Below, piece by piece: positions 24,395 to 34,127 of a DNA stretch of 61,964 nucleotides; within the stretch, counting starts at the first letter, position 1, and the number at the start of each line of letters is the position of its first letter. The translations under genes were made by a program, and so were the position numbers. The stretch comes from an uncultured Eggerthellaceae bacterium. Its GTDB lineage: Bacteria; Actinomycetota; Coriobacteriia; Coriobacteriales; Eggerthellaceae. Location: the NCBI GenBank assembly GCA_949840905.1, contig CATKXW010000012.1, positions 1 through 61,964 on the forward strand, read 5' to 3'. The notes under the pieces are model-generated. The model was not told where the DNA came from. It did no database searches and saw only the letters and a list, made by a program, of their open reading frames with translations.

Positions 24395-26770
24395 TCACTT
24401 CTTCTTGCCCGCATCGCGCGACACCATGCGCCGGGCTTCGAACACGCCTTCCACCGCATTCAGGCTCTGCAACGTACGCTCCATCAGCGACAGGTCGGAC
24501 ACTTGGAACAGAAAGCGCATGTCCACCACGCCGTCGCGATGGGTGTTGCTGGCCGAGGACAGCACGTTAGCCCCCATCTCCGAGATGACGCGGGTAACGT
24601 CTAACAGCAGATTCAGGCGGTCGATGGCCTCGATGTAGACCTCTATCTTATAGGATTGCTCGCCGCTGGGCGTGCCCTCCCATTCCACGTCGATGATGCG
24701 GCCCGGCTCCTTCTTCAGGTCGAGGGCGTTGGGGCAATCGGCGCGGTGCACCGACACCCCACGGCCGCGGGTGACGAAGCCGAGTATCTCGTCCCCCGGC
24801 ACCGGATTGCAGCAGCGCGACAGACGCACCAGCACATCGTCGACGCCCTTCACCACGATGCCGTTGCTGGAATGGGTCTCGTGCTTCTTGGGGCGCTTCA
24901 CCGACGTGATCATGGGCGGCATGAGGCCGGTGGAGGACTCCGACGCCCCTATCTTGGGCTTCGCATCGTCCTCGTTGCCCTTGTCCACCAATATCTTCAG
25001 CAGTCGGTTGCCCACGTTCTGAGCGCTCTCGCGCCCGGTGCCCAGCTGTACGAACATGTCGTCGGGGTCGTTGAAGCCCATAGCCTCGGCCACCGACTTG
25101 ATGGCCCGCATCGACTGGGCGCTCGAGATGCCCAAGCCATGCTTGCGCATCTCCTGCATCAACCGGTCGCGACCCACTTGCAGGTCGTCGGATCGGCTCG
25201 CCTTCGAGAAGTAGGAGCGTATCTTCGAGCGGGCGGAAGGGGTGCGCACCACGTTCAGCCAGTCGCGGGAAGGGCTCGCGCTCTTCTGGGTGAGTATCTC
25301 CACGCGATCGCCCACCTGCAGCTGGTAGGTCAGAGGCACGATGGAGCCGTTCACCTTCGCGCCCACGCAGTGGTTGCCCACCTCGGTGTGGATGGCATAG
25401 GCGAAGTCCACCGGAGTGGAGCCCGCGCGCAAGCTCATGACCTCCCCTTGCGGGGTGAACACGAACACTTCCGAATCGTCGAGGTCCATCTTCAGCGACT
25501 TGAGGAACTCGCGCGAGTCCTCGGTCTCATCTTGCCAGTCCACCATCTCGCGCAGCCACGCCAGCTGCTGGTCGAGCACATCCCCTCCCCCGCGGGAGTT
25601 GCTGCCGCCGCTCTCCTTGTAGCGCCAATGGGCCGCCACGCCGTATTCGCTCATGCGGTGCATCTCCTCGGTGCGGATCTGCACCTCCAAAGGCCGGCCG
25701 GCCGGTCCCATGACGGTGGTGTGAAGGCTCTGGTACATGTTGAACTTCGGCATGGCGATGTAGTCTTTGAAGCGGCCGGGCATGGGATGCCACAGGGTGT
25801 GCACCGCCCCCAAGGCTGAATAGCAGTCCTTGATGGACTTCACGATCACGCGCACAGCGATCAGGTCGTAGATCTCGGAGAAGCCCTTGCCCTTCTTGGT
25901 CATCTTCTGATAGATGGAGTACAGATGCTTCGGCCGCCCCATGATCTGGGCGTCCACCCCTACCTTGTCCATCTCCTCGGCGATGATGTCGATCACGTTC
26001 TCCAAGTAGTTCTCCCGGTCGGCCCGCGACTCGGTGACCATGCGACTGACCTGCTTGTACTTGTTCGGCTCAAGGTAGTAGAAGGCGAGGTCTTCCAGCT
26101 CCCATTTGATGGAGTTGATGCCCAGGCGGTGCGCGATGGGAGCGTATATCTCCAAGGTCTCGCGCGACTTGAAGATGCGGCGATCCTCCTTCAAGGCACC
26201 GAGGGTGCGCATGTTGTGCAGGCGATCGGCAAGCTTGATGACGATGACGCGGATGTCCTTGCTCATGGCCACCAGCATCTTGCGGATGGTGGCGGCCTGC
26301 TCATCTGACAGGCTCTCCACCTCGATGCGAGTGATCTTGGTCACGCCTTCCACCAAAGTGCGCACTTGTGGGTTGAACAGCTGCTCCACATCCTCTCCGG
26401 TAGCATCGGTGTCTTCCACCGTATCGTGGAGCAGAGCAGCAGCGATGGTCTCGGCGTCCATGCGCAGATCGGCCAGGATGATGCCCACCTCGATGGGATG
26501 GATGATGAACGGCTCGCCGGACTTGCGGCACTGACCTGCATGCTGCTCGTTGGCGAAGGCGAAGGCGCGGGCCAGCATGGCCTCGTCCTCCTCCGACATG
26601 TAGTTCGCCGTGAGCGCCTGCAGCTCGGCGAAGCGCTCCTCGGGCACCACGTCTGCCGCAGAGGGCGACTGGGCCGCTACGGTCTTGTTCGGATGCACCT
26701 CCAGCACCGTCGAACCAGCACCGGTGGATCGCAGCTTCTTCGCGGGTCCCTTTGCGTCGTTGGTCATCAT
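24395..26770 (-). CDS. rel: Bifunctional (p)ppGpp synthetase/hydrolase Rel
   Basis: 791 residues. The order is HD hydrolase (HAGQCRKSGEPFIIHP, ALLHDTVEDT), synthetase (YDLIAVRVIVKSI, RFKDYIAMPKFNMYQSLHTT), TGS domain (EVMSLRAGSTPVDFAYAIHT), a zinc-finger/helical region with conserved RCCNPVPGDEI, and a C-terminal ACT domain. The intact HD motif indicates a bifunctional enzyme that both makes and degrades the alarmone in response to stalled ribosomes. The start at 26770 overlaps the TGA of the RecJ-RecQ gene (ATGA), replacing a 69-codon longer frame. A second, small synthetase is encoded at 52644. Confidence 0.95.
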   Translation of the reverse strand: MMTNDAKGPAKKLRSTGAGSTVLEVHPNKTVAAQSPSAADVVPEERFAELQALTANYMSEEDEAMLARAFAFANEQHAGQCRKSGEPFIIHPIEVGIILADLRMDAETIAAALLHDTVEDTDATGEDVEQLFNPQVRTLVEGVTKITRIEVESLSDEQAATIRKMLVAMSKDIRVIVIKLADRLHNMRTLGALKEDRRIFKSRETLEIYAPIAHRLGINSIKWELEDLAFYYLEPNKYKQVSRMVTESRADRENYLENVIDIIAEEMDKVGVDAQIMGRPKHLYSIYQKMTKKGKGFSEIYDLIAVRVIVKSIKDCYSALGAVHTLWHPMPGRFKDYIAMPKFNMYQSLHTTVMGPAGRPLEVQIRTEEMHRMSEYGVAAHWRYKESGGSNSRGGGDVLDQQLAWLREMVDWQDETEDSREFLKSLKMDLDDSEVFVFTPQGEVMSLRAGSTPVDFAYAIHTEVGNHCVGAKVNGSIVPLTYQLQVGDRVEILTQKSASPSRDWLNVVRTPSARSKIRSYFSKASRSDDLQVGRDRLMQEMRKHGLGISSAQSMRAIKSVAEAMGFNDPDDMFVQLGTGRESAQNVGNRLLKILVDKGNEDDAKPKIGASESSTGLMPPMITSVKRPKKHETHSSNGIVVKGVDDVLVRLSRCCNPVPGDEILGFVTRGRGVSVHRADCPNALDLKKEPGRIIDVEWEGTPSGEQSYKIEVYIEAIDRLNLLLDVTRVISEMGANVLSSASNTHRDGVVDMRFLFQVSDLSLMERTLQSLNAVEGVFEARRMVSRDAGKKK

Positions 26771-29700
26771 GATAGGCCGTTCCCTCTTCTCTTCTGTTGC
26801 CACAGCTGCGGCATGATGGGGCGGATCACCCGCCCATGCAGCACGCCGGCGTCGCTGGCGAAGGCCCAGCGGCAGAACGCCGCGAAGCCGTCGCGCTCGT
26901 CGAGCCCTTCCCGGTAGCGCACCGAGTCGGTCAGCTCGACCTTCGCTGCGTCCTCCCGCACGCGCACGCGGAAGCATTGGCGGGCCCCCTCCCTCACCGC
27001 TTCCGTCTCGATCAGCCCGAGCTCGTGGAACACCGCCAGGCCGCAGGCGGCCGCACCAGGGCTCACCCCGCGCAACGCTGTGGACGCCACGGAGGCGAGC
27101 GTGGAGGGGTCGATCATGAACATGCCGTCGGCCTGCTCGCGGCCCATGGTGCGCAAGCAGCGATAGACCTGGGCCATCACGTCGTGGTCGGGCGTCATGT
27201 TGGCGAGGATATCCTCGTTGATGCGCACATCATCGCGGCCGTAGAGCAGATGTATCCAGGCATCGGCCCCGTCGCGACCAGCACGGCCCGCCATCTGGTT
27301 GAACTCTATCTCGTTGAACGGCATGTGGTACAGCACCACGTGCCGGATGTTCGCTATGTTGATGCCCTCGCCGAATGCGGAGGTGGCCACGAGCACCTTC
27401 AGGTCGTCGCGACGGAACAGCGCCTCGATGCGCAGACGCTCCTCTCGGCTCAGGCCTGCGTTGTAGAAGCCGATCATGAGGGCGAGAGCGGGCACCATGC
27501 GCCGCAGCATGCGGGCCAGGGCCACCGATTGCTCCCGGGAGTTCACGTATATGACCGTCTTCTGCCCCGAGGCTACCAGGTTCGCCAGGTACAGGTCGCG
27601 GTTCTTGATGTTACGCCTATCCACCACCTGCAGGTTCTCCCGCGCCGTCTCATCGATGACGCTATCGTCGAGGGGGAACTGCTCTTCGATGTCGGCTGCC
27701 ACCTCGTCATCAGCTGTCGCGGTGACGGCCAGCACCACCGGATCGCCCAGTCGTCGCGCTATATCGCCCAACGCACGATAGGCCAGACGCTGGCCGGCCT
27801 TCGCCAGGCCGATATGGTGGGCCTCGTCCACCACCAGAAAGCCGATGCGGCCGCCATGAGCGATCTCTTCGGCGTGATAGGCCAGATACTCCGGCGTGGT
27901 CAGCACGATGTCCACCGCCCCTTGGACGAGCCCGCTGTATACCTCAGCGCGCTGCTCGGCGGTGCTCTCGCCGGTGAGCATCGCGGTGTTCAGACCGAAG
28001 CGATCGAACGCCTGGAACAAATGGAACGCCTGATCGGCGATGAGGGCGCGCAGCGGGTACACGAACAGGCTCGCCTTGCGCTGTCGCAGGGCCATCTTGG
28101 CGGCATGGGCTTGGAACAGCAGCGACTTGCCGCGACCGGTGGCCATCACGGCCAGCACCGAGGCGCCTCGCTCCAGATCGTCCAAGATGCGCCGCTGGGC
28201 CTCATGGAGCCGATTCGGCCCGATGAGCGCACCGATGATGGCATCTTCGAGGGCGAGAGGATCTTGAGAGGCGATGCGCTCCCATTCCGCTCGCGCCTCG
28301 CGTCGGCGCGCCGTGCGCTCCTTCTCCCCTTCGTCACCCTCGTCCGCTAAAGCTTGCTCGGCGGCCGCACCCTCCTCGCTCTGCTCGCTCTGCTGGAAGA
28401 GCGCGGATGCGAAGGAGACGGCCTCTGGGTCGAGGCAGGCCTTCAGCGCATCGCAACAACGGGTGGGCTCGATGGCCTCCACTATGGCCTTGACGCTGAA
28501 ACGGCCGCGCCACTCGTCTATCTGCACGGAGAACGCCACGTCCACCACAGCATCGGTGCTCAGGTACTCCTCGATGCGCGAGCAATGGAACATGATGGCC
28601 GACACGCTGGTCACGCCATCGGTCAGCTTGCAAGAGAAGTGGTTCTTCCCTGCGCCCACGGCCCGGCCGCCCTCGATCATGACGTTGCGCGCCAAGAACA
28701 GAGGGGTGGGGTTCTCCTGACCGAAGGGGGCCAGCTCATCGAGCTGGCGCACCGCCTTCAACGTGAGCTCATCGAGGCTCACCACCGTATCGACGGCCAG
28801 CGAAGGATGAAAGTCGTCCTCGGGGAGCTCGGCCATGAACGCGGCCATGCGCTCGGTGAAGGCAGCTAGGTTCGCCGTGGGCAGCGTCACGCCCACGGCC
28901 GCTTCGTGGCCGCCGAACCGGGTGAGCAGGTCGCTGCACGATTCGACGGCGCGGAACAGGTTCACCGACCCCACGCTGCGGCCCGAGCCGCGGGCCTCCT
29001 CGCCGTCGATGGTGAACAACAAGGTGGGCACACCGTAGGAGCTCACCAGGCGGCTCGCCACGATACCCTTCACGCCCTCGTGCCAGTCGGTGCCGCCCAC
29101 CACTAACACGCGCTGACCGTCGTATATCTCCTCGGCCTGAGCGATGGCCGCCTCGGCCAGCTCGGCCTCGATGGCGCGCCGCTGGTCGTTCACGGCCTCC
29201 AACTGCTCAGCCAACGCGCTCGCCTCGTCGAAGCTGTCACTGAGCAGCAGATCGAGGGCTAAGGTGGCATCCCCCATGCGCCCAGCGGCGTTCAGCCGCG
29301 GAGCCAAGGAGAAGCTGAGCGAGGTGGAGCTGAGCGGCTTGTCGCCCGCCCCGGCAGCGCCGATGAGGGCCGCCAAGCAGGGACGCGGCGCGGTGTTCAT
29401 GCGCTCCAGGCCATCGGCCACCAGCGCACGGTTCTCTTCCCGCATGGGCATGAGGTCGGCCACCGTGCCCAACGTGGCCAGGTCGGTATAGGAGCGCCAC
29501 AGGTGCGGATAGCCGAACCGTGCGCCCAAGGCTTGCACTACCTTCAACGCCACGCCCACCCCGGCCAGGATCGAGCTTTGACAGTCGGGGTCGAGCTTAG
29601 GGTCGCACACCGGGATGTCCAGCGGCACGTTGTCGGTGGCCTCATGGTGATCGGTCACGATCACCTTCACGCCCTCGGCCTCGATAGCAGCCGCTTCATC

Positions 29701-30147
29701 ACGGCAGACGATACCGCAGTCCACGGTGACGATGCAGTCGGGCCGCAGCGCACGGGCTCGCTCATAGGCGGCCATGGTGAGGCCATAACCCTCCTCGAAG
29801 CGCCGTGGGATGAACGGGTCGGCATGGGCGCCAAGGGCCCGCAGCCCGCGCGTGAGCACCGCGGTGGCCGAGATGCCATCGAGGTCGAAGTCGCCGAACA
29901 CCACGATACGCTCCTTGGCGCGCACCGAGCTCTCCAAAGCGTCCACCACCGCCCCCAGGCCCGGGATGCTGTAAGGATCGAGCCAGTCGCGATCGAGCGA
30001 GGGGTGCAAGAACTCATCGGCCTGCTGCGCCGTGACGATGCCGCGCCCCGCCAACGTGGTGGCTAAGAAGCGCGGGAACCCGAGATGTTGTTGAAGACGC
30101 GCTACCGCCTCGCCTTGAACGGAGGCTACGCGGAACTGAGCCGTCAT
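26767..30147 (-). CDS. recJ: RecJ exonuclease fused to RecQ-type helicase
   Basis: 1126 residues. Residues about 1-570 are RecJ, a 5'-3' single-strand DNA exonuclease: FGDFDLDGISAT (86-91 is the DxDxDG metal motif), VTDHHEATDN (DHH at 166-168), and RFGGHEAAVGVTL. After an acidic linker a superfamily 2 helicase of RecQ kind follows: MATGRGKSLLF (Walker A), LVVDEAHHIG (DEAH), AVTATADDEV, and NQMAGRAGRDG (motif VI). The last ~120 residues are unrecognised. RecQ and RecJ cooperate in end processing, so one chain could unwind and degrade. The ATG is preceded by AAAGGTAGAG. Translation is coupled to rel. Confidence 0.9.
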   Translation of the reverse strand: MTAQFRVASVQGEAVARLQQHLGFPRFLATTLAGRGIVTAQQADEFLHPSLDRDWLDPYSIPGLGAVVDALESSVRAKERIVVFGDFDLDGISATAVLTRGLRALGAHADPFIPRRFEEGYGLTMAAYERARALRPDCIVTVDCGIVCRDEAAAIEAEGVKVIVTDHHEATDNVPLDIPVCDPKLDPDCQSSILAGVGVALKVVQALGARFGYPHLWRSYTDLATLGTVADLMPMREENRALVADGLERMNTAPRPCLAALIGAAGAGDKPLSSTSLSFSLAPRLNAAGRMGDATLALDLLLSDSFDEASALAEQLEAVNDQRRAIEAELAEAAIAQAEEIYDGQRVLVVGGTDWHEGVKGIVASRLVSSYGVPTLLFTIDGEEARGSGRSVGSVNLFRAVESCSDLLTRFGGHEAAVGVTLPTANLAAFTERMAAFMAELPEDDFHPSLAVDTVVSLDELTLKAVRQLDELAPFGQENPTPLFLARNVMIEGGRAVGAGKNHFSCKLTDGVTSVSAIMFHCSRIEEYLSTDAVVDVAFSVQIDEWRGRFSVKAIVEAIEPTRCCDALKACLDPEAVSFASALFQQSEQSEEGAAAEQALADEGDEGEKERTARRREARAEWERIASQDPLALEDAIIGALIGPNRLHEAQRRILDDLERGASVLAVMATGRGKSLLFQAHAAKMALRQRKASLFVYPLRALIADQAFHLFQAFDRFGLNTAMLTGESTAEQRAEVYSGLVQGAVDIVLTTPEYLAYHAEEIAHGGRIGFLVVDEAHHIGLAKAGQRLAYRALGDIARRLGDPVVLAVTATADDEVAADIEEQFPLDDSVIDETARENLQVVDRRNIKNRDLYLANLVASGQKTVIYVNSREQSVALARMLRRMVPALALMIGFYNAGLSREERLRIEALFRRDDLKVLVATSAFGEGINIANIRHVVLYHMPFNEIEFNQMAGRAGRDGADAWIHLLYGRDDVRINEDILANMTPDHDVMAQVYRCLRTMGREQADGMFMIDPSTLASVASTALRGVSPGAAACGLAVFHELGLIETEAVREGARQCFRVRVREDAAKVELTDSVRYREGLDERDGFAAFCRWAFASDAGVLHGRVIRPIMPQLWQQKRRGNGLS

Positions 30148-30369: not shown

Positions 30370-31113
30370 TCAATTGTCGCGAATGAGCCTCTTATAGAGC
30401 AGCTTGAAGGCGATGGCGGAGACCAGCACCCACGCAACGATGACCGCCAAGGGCACCGCTGCGCTCGCAAGGCTCAGATCGCCGTTCAACATCAAACGCA
30501 GGAGCTCGTCAGCACCGCCGGTGGGACCGAATCGCACCACCGAGCGGATGCTCTCGTCATAGCCGAACATGGGAGCTAAGGCCAGCAACAGGATGGGGAC
30601 GCTATACAGCCCGGCGGTCATCTGGTCGCGCGAGGCAAGGCCTGCCACCAGCGACAGCAGTATCATGGGCACCGCTGCCGCGATGCCGCAAGCGAGGTAC
30701 GGAGCGCACAGGCTCCAGGGCGCTCCAGCCACCCCGAAGCATGCCAGCTCGGCCAGCACCGTGAGAGCGAGGGCCACCAGTCCCTTCGCCGCGATGATCT
30801 GCTCGGCGCTGACGTTAGCGAGCATGAGCGTGCGCAGGGTGTGCTTCTCCTTCTCTTCAGCGATGCCGTAGATGAGCACCATGGATGCGCCCATGCCCAC
30901 CGACATGCCCATCCCCAAGGACAGCAGCACATAGCGCAGGGCCGCCCCTACCTCCGCGTCGCCTCCGGACAGCGCATCCTCACCGAAGAACATCCGGTAG
31001 AAGAACGTGAAGCCCACGGGCATGATGATGCTCAACAACATGGTAGGGTTCTTCACGAGGTCCTTGACGTCCTTCTCAACGAGGACCCCCAGCTTTCGCA
31101 TGGTCGCTCCCAT
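30370..31113 (-). CDS. ABC-2 type permease, first paralogue
   Basis: 247 residues with six predicted membrane segments. An N-terminal amphipathic stretch (VLVEKDVKDLVKNPTM) and the cytoplasmic loop IAEEKEKHTLRTLMLANVS are typical of ABC-2 permeases. It resembles the plus-strand permease at 33384: both share a loop ending in E-x2-x2-T and a G-L-x-S-x-DQM segment. The ATG directly follows the TGA of the ATPase gene and has AAGGGAG six bases upstream. Likely works with that ATPase to export a peptide, lipid or drug. Confidence 0.85.
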   Translation of the reverse strand: MGATMRKLGVLVEKDVKDLVKNPTMLLSIIMPVGFTFFYRMFFGEDALSGGDAEVGAALRYVLLSLGMGMSVGMGASMVLIYGIAEEKEKHTLRTLMLANVSAEQIIAAKGLVALALTVLAELACFGVAGAPWSLCAPYLACGIAAAVPMILLSLVAGLASRDQMTAGLYSVPILLLALAPMFGYDESIRSVVRFGPTGGADELLRLMLNGDLSLASAAVPLAVIVAWVLVSAIAFKLLYKRLIRDN

Positions 31114-31959
31114 TCAGAACTCCCTTCCCGTCAGCTCCAGGAACACTTCTTCGAGGTTCGGCTCATCGGAATGCACCGACAGCACCTCTTCTGCGGCCAT
31201 CAGCCCAGCGAGGGCCTCGGCATCCTTCGCACCTTTGGTGAGCTCGACCGTACCGCGGGTTCGAGTGCGCACCACGATGCGGTCGCGGCCGTGCCGCAGC
31301 CGCAGCTCTGCAGGAGCATCGCACGCCACGATAGCACCGTCGTCGAGGATCGCCACCCGCTGGCACAGGGTTTCGGCCTCGGCCATGTCATGGGTGGTGA
31401 GGAACACGGTGGTACCCCGGGCCTGCAGCTTTCCCAACAGCCGATGCACCTCGCTGCGGGCGGCAGGGTCCAACCCGCTCGTGGGCTCATCGAGGAACAG
31501 CAGCTCTGGTTCGTGCACCAGAGCCGCAGCCAAAGCCGCCCGCTGGCGCATGCCCTTGGAGCAATCCTTCACGAGGGTGCCCCCATCGGCCGCCAGACCC
31601 AGCCGCTCCAGCAGATGTCCCACCCGACGTGGGCTCGTGCCGCGCAGACGACCGTAGAGCGCGAGGTTGTCGCGGATGGACAGCCGCTCGTAGAGGGCGC
31701 TCGTGTCCGACAGGATGCCGATGCGCTCGTAGTCATCGGCCGTGACATGGTCGATAGAGCGACCGAACAGCATTATACGGCCGCCGTCACGGACCAGCTG
31801 GCGAGTGAGCAGCTTGATGGTGGAGGTCTTTCCCGCCCCTGATGGGCCGAGGAAGCCGAAGGTCTCGCCCCGCGCTACCGAGAACGTAAGATCGTCCAAC
31901 ACCCGCTTCGCACCGAACGAGAGGCTCACTACCTCCATGGAGAGGATGGTCGCGGTCAT
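31114..31959 (-). CDS. ABC-2 exporter ATPase
   Basis: 281 residues. Walker [11 protein letters not shown], signature variant DCSKGMRQRAALAAAL, Walker B ELLFLDEPTSGLDP and H-loop TTHDMAEAE are present; the CSKGMRQR form is the usual one for ABC-2 (DrrA/NatA-like) exporters. The C-terminal ~60 residues carry the FELTG-like extension (FLELTGREF) seen in this group. AGGAGA lies five bases before the ATG. It is 12 bp downstream of a small membrane protein gene and directly abuts the permease gene. Confidence 0.93.
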   Translation of the reverse strand: MTATILSMEVVSLSFGAKRVLDDLTFSVARGETFGFLGPSGAGKTSTIKLLTRQLVRDGGRIMLFGRSIDHVTADDYERIGILSDTSALYERLSIRDNLALYGRLRGTSPRRVGHLLERLGLAADGGTLVKDCSKGMRQRAALAAALVHEPELLFLDEPTSGLDPAARSEVHRLLGKLQARGTTVFLTTHDMAEAETLCQRVAILDDGAIVACDAPAELRLRHGRDRIVVRTRTRGTVELTKGAKDAEALAGLMAAEEVLSVHSDEPNLEEVFLELTGREF

Positions 31960-31971
31960 CTGGCTCTCCTT

Positions 31972-32148
31972 CTAGTCGGCGACCGCGACATCGGAGGTGC
32001 GGCGCGACTCGAGACGATCGAGGCGCTCGTTCACCTTCGCGAGCTCACGGCTATGACAGACCTGCAAGTACACGACCCCAGAACAGAGCAGCACGAGGCC
32101 GACGGCCAGCAGCAGAACGAGGATGCTAAGAGCGTGGATCGAGATCAT
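31972..32148 (-). CDS. Small single-span membrane protein
   Basis: 58 residues. Residues about 5-28 are a membrane segment (LSILVLLLAVGLVLLCSGVV), followed by a charged helix with heptad-like leucines (ELAKVNERLDRLESRR). The ATG at 32148 has AAGGAG nine bases upstream; 17 extra codons in the longest frame are rejected. It lies 12 bp before the ABC-2 ATPase gene and is likely the first gene of that operon. It may be an accessory subunit; no family is recognised. Confidence 0.65.
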   Translation of the reverse strand: MISIHALSILVLLLAVGLVLLCSGVVYLQVCHSRELAKVNERLDRLESRRTSDVAVAD

Positions 32149-32252
32149 GGGAAGATGCTCCTTCTCTTGAGAGGGCACCGTCTTCGGAGAGGCGCCCAAG
32201 GGATATGACGGAGCCCATGATGGAGGAGCCTAACGAGGCCGCGCAACGGAAT

Positions 32253-32278
32253 GTGCACGACGCGAGCGCTTCGTGCAC
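32253..32278 (-). terminator. Stem-loop after the LytTR gene
   Basis: GTGCACGA (32253-32260) pairs with TCGTGCAC (32271-32278) around a 10-base GC-rich loop. On the minus strand it lies about 80 bp past the LytTR stop and is followed by ATTCCGTTG. It separates that gene from the small membrane protein gene. Confidence 0.45.
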
Positions 32279-32357
32279 GAGAGGAGCTCAGAGGCGCACG
32301 AGTGGAGCATATGACCGATGATCAGGGGGAACGCAGCGGCAAGAAGGTAGTGTCGCC

Positions 32358-33296
32358 TCACCAACCGAAACGGTCGCGCATCTCTTCGGCGCGGCCCTTC
32401 GATAGCGGGATGGAGGTGCGCGAAGCATCGGAGAGCACCAGATCGAAGGTGTTGCGCGTGTAGCGTTCGACGCGGGAGACCTTCTGCACGTTCACGATAT
32501 AGGAGCGATGGCAGCGAAAGAAGCCGAAGCGCACCAGCCGCTCTTCGAGCTCGTCCATGGTGAAGGTGGTAGGGTACAGCTCACCGCGGACGCTGGCGTA
32601 GTTCACCCGATCGGCGCTCTCGATGAAGTCGATCTCACGAGGGTCGAGCAACAGCGTGGCCTCGCCGGCCTTCGCCGCTATCTTGCAGACGCGCACCTCG
32701 TCGGCGAGGTCATCGGCACCATCGCCAGCTGCGGTCTCGCCGTCCTCGTCGAGCACAGCAGGGCGCAGCAGCCCCTCCTCTTCCCAGAACGCCTCACCCG
32801 GCATCAGCAGCGCCTCGCGCAGAGGCTGGCCCACGGTGACGAACAGCGTGCCCGCCTCTGAGCGCTCGCCGATCCACGCCAGCACGAGAGCGCGGGCATC
32901 CGGTCCCAGGTCGAGCAGCGGACGCTCGCAGAAGCACACTTCCGGCTCGAAGAGGCTCATGCGCGCGAATCCGAGGAGCGCCCGTTGCTCAGGATCCAGC
33001 TTCGCCACCATCGTGCGAGCCGCCCCTTCCAGCCCGAAATGAGCGAGAGCCTTTGCCACAGCGGAGGAGGGAGCGGCCGCCAGCCGCGCGAAGAAACGCA
33101 AGTATGAGCGGACGGTATCGCGGTCGAAGCCACCGTCCTCTTCGAGGAAGTAAGCGCCACGACGCGCACCCTGCACCTCGCGCACCGCATCCAGCGCGCG
33201 ACGGCCCATCTCGCGCGAGCATTCCACATGGACGCTGCGACGCCCCTTGCCCACCTCTTCGCTCACGAGCTCTTCGATGGAGCCGTGCTCCGCCAT
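32358..33296 (-). CDS. LytTR regulator with degenerate ABC-ATPase-like N-terminus
   Basis: 312 residues. The last ~100 are a LytTR DNA-binding domain (IDFIESADRVNYASVRGEL, FFRCHRSYIVNVQKVSRVER, IPLSKGRAEEMRDRFGW). The first ~190 align loosely with the second half of an ABC ATPase: LDPEQRALLGFARMSLFEP occupies the signature helix and EVCFCERPLLDLGPDARALV the Walker B/D-loop, but Walker A, the LSGGQ serine-glycines and the catalytic Asp-Glu pair are missing. It cannot hydrolyse ATP by the normal mechanism and may contact the exporter instead. A GGGAGG site precedes the ATG at 33296; 199 upstream codons overlapping the divergent permease are rejected. Confidence 0.82.
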   Translation of the reverse strand: MAEHGSIEELVSEEVGKGRRSVHVECSREMGRRALDAVREVQGARRGAYFLEEDGGFDRDTVRSYLRFFARLAAAPSSAVAKALAHFGLEGAARTMVAKLDPEQRALLGFARMSLFEPEVCFCERPLLDLGPDARALVLAWIGERSEAGTLFVTVGQPLREALLMPGEAFWEEEGLLRPAVLDEDGETAAGDGADDLADEVRVCKIAAKAGEATLLLDPREIDFIESADRVNYASVRGELYPTTFTMDELEERLVRFGFFRCHRSYIVNVQKVSRVERYTRNTFDLVLSDASRTSIPLSKGRAEEMRDRFGW

Positions 33297-33383: not shown

Positions 33384-34127
33384 GTGGCGAAGGTCGATGG
33401 CAGACGGGCGTTCGGAGCCCTGCTCCGACGCGACATCGGCTGCACGCTGCGCAACGCCACCTGCCTCGCCTCCATGGTCTTCGCAGTGGCGGCATGCTGG
33501 TTCTTCAGCTCGACCCTCGGCGAGTTCATAGCCGTCGACCCCTTGTTCGCCGCGTTCATCATGGCGTTCATCGCGTTCTTCCCCACCCTGGAAGCAGGCA
33601 GCATCATCACGCTGTTCGCCATGGGAGAAGAGCGAGCCCACGGCACCTACGAGGTGATGGAGCGCGGCGGCGTGCGCTTGCGCACCATCGTCGAAGCGAA
33701 GGTGGCGACCAGCGTCCTGATCGGCACCGCGCTCACCGTGCTCTGCTTCGCCGTGGCAGGCGCAGCCCCAGAACGACTGCCCCTTCTGGCGGGCATCGCG
33801 TTGGTGGGCAGTCTCCCCTTCCTCGTGCTGTCCAGCGGCTGCGGTCTGCTCTCCCACGATCAGATGCGCACGAACCTGTGGGCGTGGCCCCAAGCGATCC
33901 TCGGACTGATGTCCCTCGTCGGTACCGTCGTGCCCGCCTGGGGCTTCATCGGTGCCCTCAGCCCCGTCGGCTTCCTCGCGGCCGCCTGCACCTGGACGGT
34001 AACGGGCGACCCCGATGCCCTCGGCTTTCCGCCCCTCGCCATGGCCGCGAACCTCATAGTTTGGAGCGCCCTTTCCCTCCTCTGGCTCCGCTGCTGCCTG
34101 AAACGAGCCGAGCGAGATCAGAGCTAG
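33384..34127 (+). CDS. ABC-2 type permease, second paralogue
   Basis: 247 residues, exactly the length of the minus-strand permease at 30370, with the same six-segment layout. Shared landmarks are ALLRRDIGCTLRNATCL versus VLVEKDVKDLVKNPTML, a GEERAHGTYEVMERGGV loop, and GLLSHDQMRTNLW versus GLASRDQMTAGLY. The GTG at 33384 is eight bases after AAGGGAG; the longest frame would run into the divergent LytTR gene and is rejected. The two permeases probably pair as a heterodimer with the ATPase at 31114. No second ATPase lies beside it. Confidence 0.82.
   Translation: MAKVDGRRAFGALLRRDIGCTLRNATCLASMVFAVAACWFFSSTLGEFIAVDPLFAAFIMAFIAFFPTLEAGSIITLFAMGEERAHGTYEVMERGGVRLRTIVEAKVATSVLIGTALTVLCFAVAGAAPERLPLLAGIALVGSLPFLVLSSGCGLLSHDQMRTNLWAWPQAILGLMSLVGTVVPAWGFIGALSPVGFLAAACTWTVTGDPDALGFPPLAMAANLIVWSALSLLWLRCCLKRAERDQS

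Follow-up and report, generated by a model that had tools for sequence, protein, structure and literature searches.

A LytTR regulator adjoins an ABC-2 exporter

We analysed a stretch of 61,964 nucleotides from an uncultured Eggerthellaceae bacterium (contig CATKXW010000012.1, assembly GCA_949840905.1; hereafter the window), in which a gene on the reverse strand (32358..33296) encodes a regulator of 312 aa, here named dABC-LytTR, beside an ABC-2 exporter. The gene has an ATG start, with AAGGGAGGGG immediately 5' of it. Its C-terminal half is a LytTR DNA-binding domain (32367..32657, reverse strand; residues 214-310), detected with PF04397 in a genome-wide search and by hmmscan (E 2.3e-21, 76.3 bits against a cut-off of 22.6), so that the attached LytTR domain described in the initial annotation of this DNA was recovered. 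The whole 1.98-Mb genome holds three LytTR matches, dABC-LytTR among them. No receiver domain was found in the protein, as LytTR is its only Pfam match at E up to 1 and its N-terminus has the fold of a nucleotide-binding domain (NBD). By its predicted domains, dABC-LytTR is a one-component regulator, in which a catalytically dead ABC NBD is fused to a LytTR domain.

The exporter adjoins the regulator just where the initial annotation had placed it. It consists of an intact ABC-2 exporter ATPase of the DrrA type (31114..31959, reverse strand; PF00005 with E 7.4e-27, and 216.5 bits to the DrrA model, short of its cut-off of 312.45) and an ABC-2 permease, here PermB (30370..31113, reverse strand; PF12698 with E 2.1e-5, under the gathering cut-off, and about six transmembrane (TM) segments by hydropathy). 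They are preceded by a small open reading frame (ORF) of 58 aa with a single TM segment (31972..32148, reverse strand), which has AAGGAG upstream, is the first gene after the putative operator described below and matches Pfam DUF2681 with E 0.0024 and 18.6 bits, below the cut-off of 28. Divergent from dABC-LytTR lies PermC (33387..34127, forward strand), an ABC-2-like permease that Pfam matches only at E 0.019 and whose GTG start was picked by eye from an upstream GGAG; a two-sequence BLASTP, with 28% identity across 263 columns and E 1e-14, identifies it as paralogous to PermB.

The N-terminal half resembles an ABC ATPase without its catalytic motifs

As the Pfam ABC models gave no match to the N-terminal half of dABC-LytTR at E up to 1, weaker signals and profile methods were used for it. 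The NCBIfam model CcmA matches residues 49-150 with E 7.4e-6, far under the CcmA cut-off, and phmmer with dABC-LytTR matched NosF in the PDB with E 1.4e-4. With a profile of 15 N-terminal sequences, ABCA3 was the top PDB match (E 8.1e-14) among 217 with E no higher than 0.01, and the best 60 of these 217 were all ABC-type ATPases, two of them RNase L inhibitor/RIL, which we take from its family to be one. The profile-profile comparison that the initial annotation had proposed, performed with hhalign between 40 N-terminal sequences and the 38 partner ATPases found at related loci, gave a probability of 98.7% and E 4e-16, aligning columns 45-183 with 78-216 and thus recovering homology to ABC ATPases, while the negative controls stayed at 0.7% (LytTR part against the ATPases) and 1.4% (N-terminal against LytTR half). 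The ABC outline that the annotation had recognised was found again in this alignment, in which FARMSLFEP falls in the helix after the signature and LLDLGPDARALV in the D-loop.

Structural similarity to ABC ATPases, on whose presence the annotation had staked its proposal, was also found. An AlphaFold2 model built from five sequences was aligned by VIA-align with the NBD of the PmtCD exporter (residues 4-182 on 17-204, 165 residues, Z 14.9, root-mean-square deviation 3.1), and Foldseek with the same model matched ABC NBDs. The ten best VIA-align alignments start at chain residue 17 to 26, and therefore roughly the first strand of the NBD has no counterpart in dABC-LytTR. Sequence profile, profile-profile and structure comparison support the view that this regulator is built on a dead ABC ATPase, whose NBD comprises residues 1-185 (32742..33296, reverse strand).

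Motifs were counted in 40 distinct dABC-LytTR sequences and in the 38 partner ATPases. Walker A (G....GK[ST]) is present in all 38 partner ATPases and in none of the 40 relatives, the Asp of Walker B is replaced by Glu124 in 40/40, and in place of the catalytic Glu 37/40 have Arg125, two have His and one has Tyr. The absence of Walker A and of a catalytic Asp-Glu, noted by the initial annotation for this protein, is therefore common to its relatives. The signature (columns 100-104) is also degenerate, reading LDPEQ in dABC-LytTR in place of LSGGQ, and at its position 103 the 40 sequences have E (26), S (9), A (4) or P (1), but never Gly. The mean majority fraction over the 40 sequences is 0.84 in the helix after the signature and 0.75 in the Q-loop/coupling region, compared with 0.58 in the remaining helical domain. 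At the site of the former P-loop, Glu25-Cys26 (33219-33224, reverse strand) is invariant in all 40 sequences, and a seven-sequence alignment shows Cys26 also in three relatives from Bacillota, of Priestia and Subdoligranulum.

Direct repeats precede the exporter operon

Three GCTCCNNTCGT repeats about 21 bp apart precede the exporter operon and are closely followed by a putative -35 box, all on the reverse strand. Putative operator repeat 1, GCTCCACTCGT (32298..32308), detected by the promoter scan, belongs to the sole exact repeat pair of the genome; repeat 2, GCTCCTCTCGT (32277..32287), follows it by 21 bp and was found by both genome and promoter scans; and repeat 3, GCTCGCGTCGT (32257..32267), found by the promoter scan, lies 20 bp after repeat 2 and keeps 8 of the 9 fixed bases. 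The putative -35 box, TTGCGC (32241..32246), is 62 bp from the start of repeat 1 and is separated from the end of repeat 3 by 10 bp, so without overlap, and 18 bp after it a putative -10 box, CATCAT (32217..32222), was picked by eye, with similar hexamers in relatives; the promoter function of both boxes is what we infer.

A single copy of the exact pair GCTCCNNTC-N12-GCTCCNNTC is present in the 1.98-Mb genome, at the dABC-LytTR locus, and none of the reversed pattern. When up to 2 mismatches were allowed, 43 genome sites were found against 57 for the reversed pattern, and since these sites are no commoner than the reversed pattern, only the exact site stands out. No exact pair lies before the regulator's own operon, the sole genome copy being in front of the exporter operon, although weaker or different sites may lie there.

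Across the family, the exact pair is present in 33 of 137 genomes, namely in 29/34 with the regulator against 4/103 without it (Fisher p 2e-20). In other families, sampled as 39 genomes (all 13 with the gene plus 26 picked from those without), it was found in 8/13 against 2/26 (p 7e-4), and the reversed pattern in 4/39. Among the 29 family genomes with both regulator and pair, 28 have a site at most 3.5 kb from the regulator, and in the remaining one (G098) it lies beside the partner ATPase, together with which it sits on a contig other than the regulator's; in G184, too, the repeats are on another contig than the regulator. Additional exact-pair sites elsewhere in the genome were seen in G020, G021 and G089. 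The one in G021, an 18/18 repeat pair, lies upstream of a second partner-like ATPase of 70.8% identity, on a short contig without the regulator. In G109, there are two dABC-LytTR genes on separate contigs, each with its own repeat array.

We also scored stretches of DNA from related loci for the repeat pair. Of 46 stretches tried, 42 could be scored in the 500 bp before the ATPase; 29 of these reached at least 16/18, with shuffle means of 9.8 to 12.6. Over the whole stretches, a pair scoring at least 16 was present in 41/46, the exceptions being two from Priestia and loci L047, L049 and L121. As to spacing, pairs exactly 21 bp apart occurred in 19/25 upstream regions, and period 21 yielded 52 pairs compared with at most 7 for each of twelve other periods. 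In 38/41 arrays, the distance from the first repeat to a T[TG]G is 62 or 63 bp, so the putative -35 box keeps a constant phase with the repeats. Small ORFs with a MITTHALSILVL-type start occupy the same gap between repeats and ATPase at several other loci, and dissimilar ones are found elsewhere.

In its letters, the array corresponds to a predicted LytTR target, with direct repeats of about 9 bp at a spacing of about 12 bp. In LytTR activator sites, according to PMC6193735, repeats of 9 bp with a spacing of about 12 bp lie immediately before the -35 box, and for RcoM PMC11347149 gives triplet repeats at 12-13 bp. The repeats ACCTCTTAG and TCCTAGTAA of a LytTR Regulatory System (LRS) of S. mutans, as given in PMC6193735, resemble TCCTCTCGT by eye.

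The regulator, the exporter and the repeats are linked across genomes

Linkage was assessed at 33 loci with flanks (20 + 13), some of them ended by contig ends; E-values from a five-sequence database were used solely for gene placement. A partner ATPase lies within the fetched stretch at 30 of these loci (18/20 + 12/13), the stretches without one being those of G098, G184 and G086. At 28 loci (17/20 + 11/13, one by TM count only), the regulator has a permease no more than about 2 kb away. At L050, L056 and L058, the regulator and the second permease overlap stop to start upstream of the ATPase and PermB, all on one strand.

Strong matches to dABC-LytTR were obtained in 34 of 138 family genomes, its own counted, the copy in G021 being interrupted by a contig end, and, among 297 relatives, in another 13 genomes of the order. 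A phylum-wide draw returned the regulator in 9/396 genomes, all from the same order, Coriobacteriales. Relatives were found in four named genomes, Bifidobacterium phasiani, Parvibacter, Eggerthella sinensis and a metagenome-assembled genome of Enterorhabdus, of which those of Parvibacter and Eggerthella sinensis are probably counted in the family sample too. The Bifidobacterium phasiani locus has the regulator, the ATPase, both permeases and the repeats, and was perhaps acquired by transfer from Coriobacteriales. A candidate from Endozoicomonas was rejected, its match being confined to the ABC part.

Outside the phylum, relatives were found in Bacillota plasmid records, six from Priestia at no less than 80% cover of the Priestia query, and also from Subdoligranulum. 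No relative was found in 28 candidate stretches of viral contigs, and among phage records the Priestia protein matched 11, none covering 80% of the query. The NBD of two Priestia relatives is full-length and is recognised by Pfam ABC_tran with 44.1 and 43.5 bits (cut-off 25), and that of the Subdoligranulum relative is shortened and reaches 22.5 bits, slightly under the cut-off; no P-loop was seen in the translations of these three, which were read by eye. The Priestia and Subdoligranulum series connects dABC-LytTR to ordinary ABC ATPases. A copy on a plasmid of Priestia megaterium ATCC 14581 lies a few kb from lantibiotic genes of the mersacidin family, which gives a hint that such exporters could have a peptide substrate.

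The window also holds a gene (26767-30147, reverse strand) for a protein of 1126 aa that joins a RecJ nuclease (DHH, DHHA1, RecJ_OB) to a DEAD/Helicase_C module.

A model for control of the exporter operon

The fusion, the fold, the loss of catalytic motifs, the conserved linkage and the conserved repeats are results of computation on which a model can be built. A functional tie between dABC-LytTR and the exporter is supported by the conserved, predicted LytTR-type operator before the exporter operon, and it is quite probable that dABC-LytTR controls this operon through the repeats at 32257-32308. The fuller reading, which we cautiously favour, is that dABC-LytTR is an activator of the exporter operon whose dead NBD docks on an ABC-2 permease, so that the state of the transporter gates transcription. 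The LytTR domain would bind the three repeats, spaced by about 21 bp upstream of the -35 box, and activate transcription of the small membrane ORF, the ATPase and PermB. The N-terminal half would be a former exporter ATPase that has given up the motifs for nucleotide binding and hydrolysis and retained the fold and the segment for docking on the permease, and it would tether the regulator at the membrane on PermC, if present, or else on PermB. A change in the state or load of the transporter would then free or reorient the regulator and switch on the exporter operon, with the load determining how much regulator is free. Docking by the Q-loop/coupling segment would fit the conservation of this region, and in this way dABC-LytTR could sense the exporter by mimicking its ATPase, as the initial annotation proposed. 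More tentatively, the exporter itself may be the receptor: the dead NBD would occupy the NBD seat of the permease until the transport cycle or substrate occupancy displaces it, the freed LytTR domain would raise the exporter, and the arrangement would be ancient in Bacillota and Coriobacteriia or have spread between them.

Other readings of the same locus were weighed against this one. Glu25 and Cys26, present in 40/40 sequences, the latter common to Priestia and Subdoligranulum as well, could form the sensing site of a regulator that is soluble and responds, through its dead NBD, to a bound small molecule or to thiol or redox state, with the exporter only as its target. Many exporter regulators do sense their substrate directly, but a soluble sensor would leave the coupling-type segment and the adjacent permease gene (28/33 loci) unexplained, and we regard it as unlikely, if worth keeping in mind. 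The two paralogous NBD/permease pairs per locus and the overlapping genes at L050, L056 and L058 suggest instead a half-dead heterodimeric exporter, in which the dead NBD and PermC are structural partners of the ATPase and PermB and the control of transcription is a second job. This seems to us doubtful: the signature of the dead NBD is lost too (position 103 is never G in 40 sequences), so that a mixed dimer would be without a canonical site, a second permease was not found in 5/33 loci and in three Bacillota loci, and the ATPase and PermB alone could form a homodimeric exporter. That the gene is decaying, or its ABC-like outline a chance resemblance without function, would agree with the missing Pfam ABC match but is hardly credible, being already contradicted by the presence of an open, conserved ORF in 47 genomes of the order (the G021 copy ended by a contig end), by the invariant noncatalytic residues and by the profile match to ABC ATPases.

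The sign of the control deserves separate consideration. Activation is argued from the position of the repeats alone, and PMC11347149 describes repression by the LytTR protein CoxC, whose three repeats overlap the -35 box. By analogy, the repeats at this locus could silence the exporter promoter until a signal arrives, which would be compatible with any model of sensing. We think this improbable, as 10 bp separate the end of repeat 3 from the putative -35 box, without overlap, in the manner of the activating LytTR systems in PMC6193735.

Several further observations count against the model of a docked activator, or limit it. The mean predicted local distance difference test (pLDDT) score of the AlphaFold2 model is 68.2, with residues 184-244 below 50, and within residues 1-180, where ten-residue blocks range from 53 to 88, the presumed docking segment (residues 51-80, lowest save one block) is the weakest part of the N-terminal model, at 53-67. 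The C-terminal strands of the NBD also have a majority fraction of 0.76, so the conservation of the coupling segment is suggestive only. A PermC-based mechanism is not universal, because PermC was not found in 5/33 loci nor in three Bacillota loci, and in G086 (locus L049) the 13 kb fetched with the regulator contain no partner ATPase and the whole genome no exact repeat pair. As to the repeats, the reversed pattern occurs in 14/137 family genomes (3/34 with the gene, 11/103 without), reversed sequence gives a pair scoring at least 16 in 9/46 stretches, kinship among genomes inflates the Fisher values, and in the two Priestia loci no repeat pair rises above shuffles, their score of 11/18 being reached by 14 and 16 of 100 shuffles.

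Relation to known systems

How exporter activity is sensed is an old question, to which, to our knowledge, the known answers are mostly separate sensors. The fusion of a dead NBD to LytTR, with repeats at the exporter, makes the coupling of gene control to transport testable in a small system open to genetics, and the repeats allow the exporter of a regulator to be predicted when the genes sit on separate contigs. If the exporter is itself the receptor, the transcription factor of an ABC transporter would be one of its own subunits, devoid of catalysis, and pseudo-ATPases would join the sensor domains of bacteria.

The pairing of ABC and LytTR domains is already known from Priestia records, where the protein is annotated as LytTR family transcriptional regulator DNA-binding domain-containing protein. 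Proteins that combine LytTR with an ABC domain may already be covered by InterPro IPR012046 (PIRSF036612), and may have been mentioned by Nikolskaya and Galperin in 2002. A literature search by title and abstract, with most subscription papers outside its scope, found no paper naming IPR012046 or PIRSF036612 and no description of an ABC-LytTR fusion. Three points were not found in the literature searched and appear to be new: the dead state of the ABC half, its tie across phyla to a live exporter and the conservation of repeats at this exporter.

Among the nearest known systems are Bacillota ABC-LytTR proteins such as those of Priestia (WP_099331387.1, WP_034655952.1), which have the same domain order, lack a P-loop and are followed by an ABC ATPase and a permease, but which differ in having a full-length NBD recognised by Pfam, one permease and no clear repeats. 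MalK and MalT resemble dABC-LytTR in that an ABC NBD controls the transcription factor driving the transporter genes, although there the two are separate proteins and the ATPase is live. RcoM senses through a PAS/heme domain and not through the relic of a transporter ATPase. In the account of RcoM and CoxC in PMC11347149, both share with dABC-LytTR an N-terminal sensor, a C-terminal LytTR domain and three direct repeats about two turns apart, but CoxC is described there as sensing by a transmembrane MHYT domain, again in place of an ATPase relic.

The LytTR Regulatory Systems HdrRM and BrsRM, as presented in PMC6193735 together with their relatives, likewise have a LytTR regulator beside the gene of an integral-membrane partner, some are linked to ABC exporter genes, and their repeats lie about 12 bp apart upstream of the -35 box. 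Compared with that account, a dead NBD is fused to the regulator here, the permease is divergent and the repeats precede the exporter. We did not class dABC-LytTR as an LRS, because two layout features fail: the gene directly downstream in the regulator operon is not a membrane inhibitor, PermC being divergent (at some other dABC-LytTR loci a permease does follow the regulator), and the exact-pair search placed no repeats before the regulator's own operon. With its regulator, membrane partner, linked exporter and repeats, dABC-LytTR may by analogy work like the LytTR Regulatory Systems.
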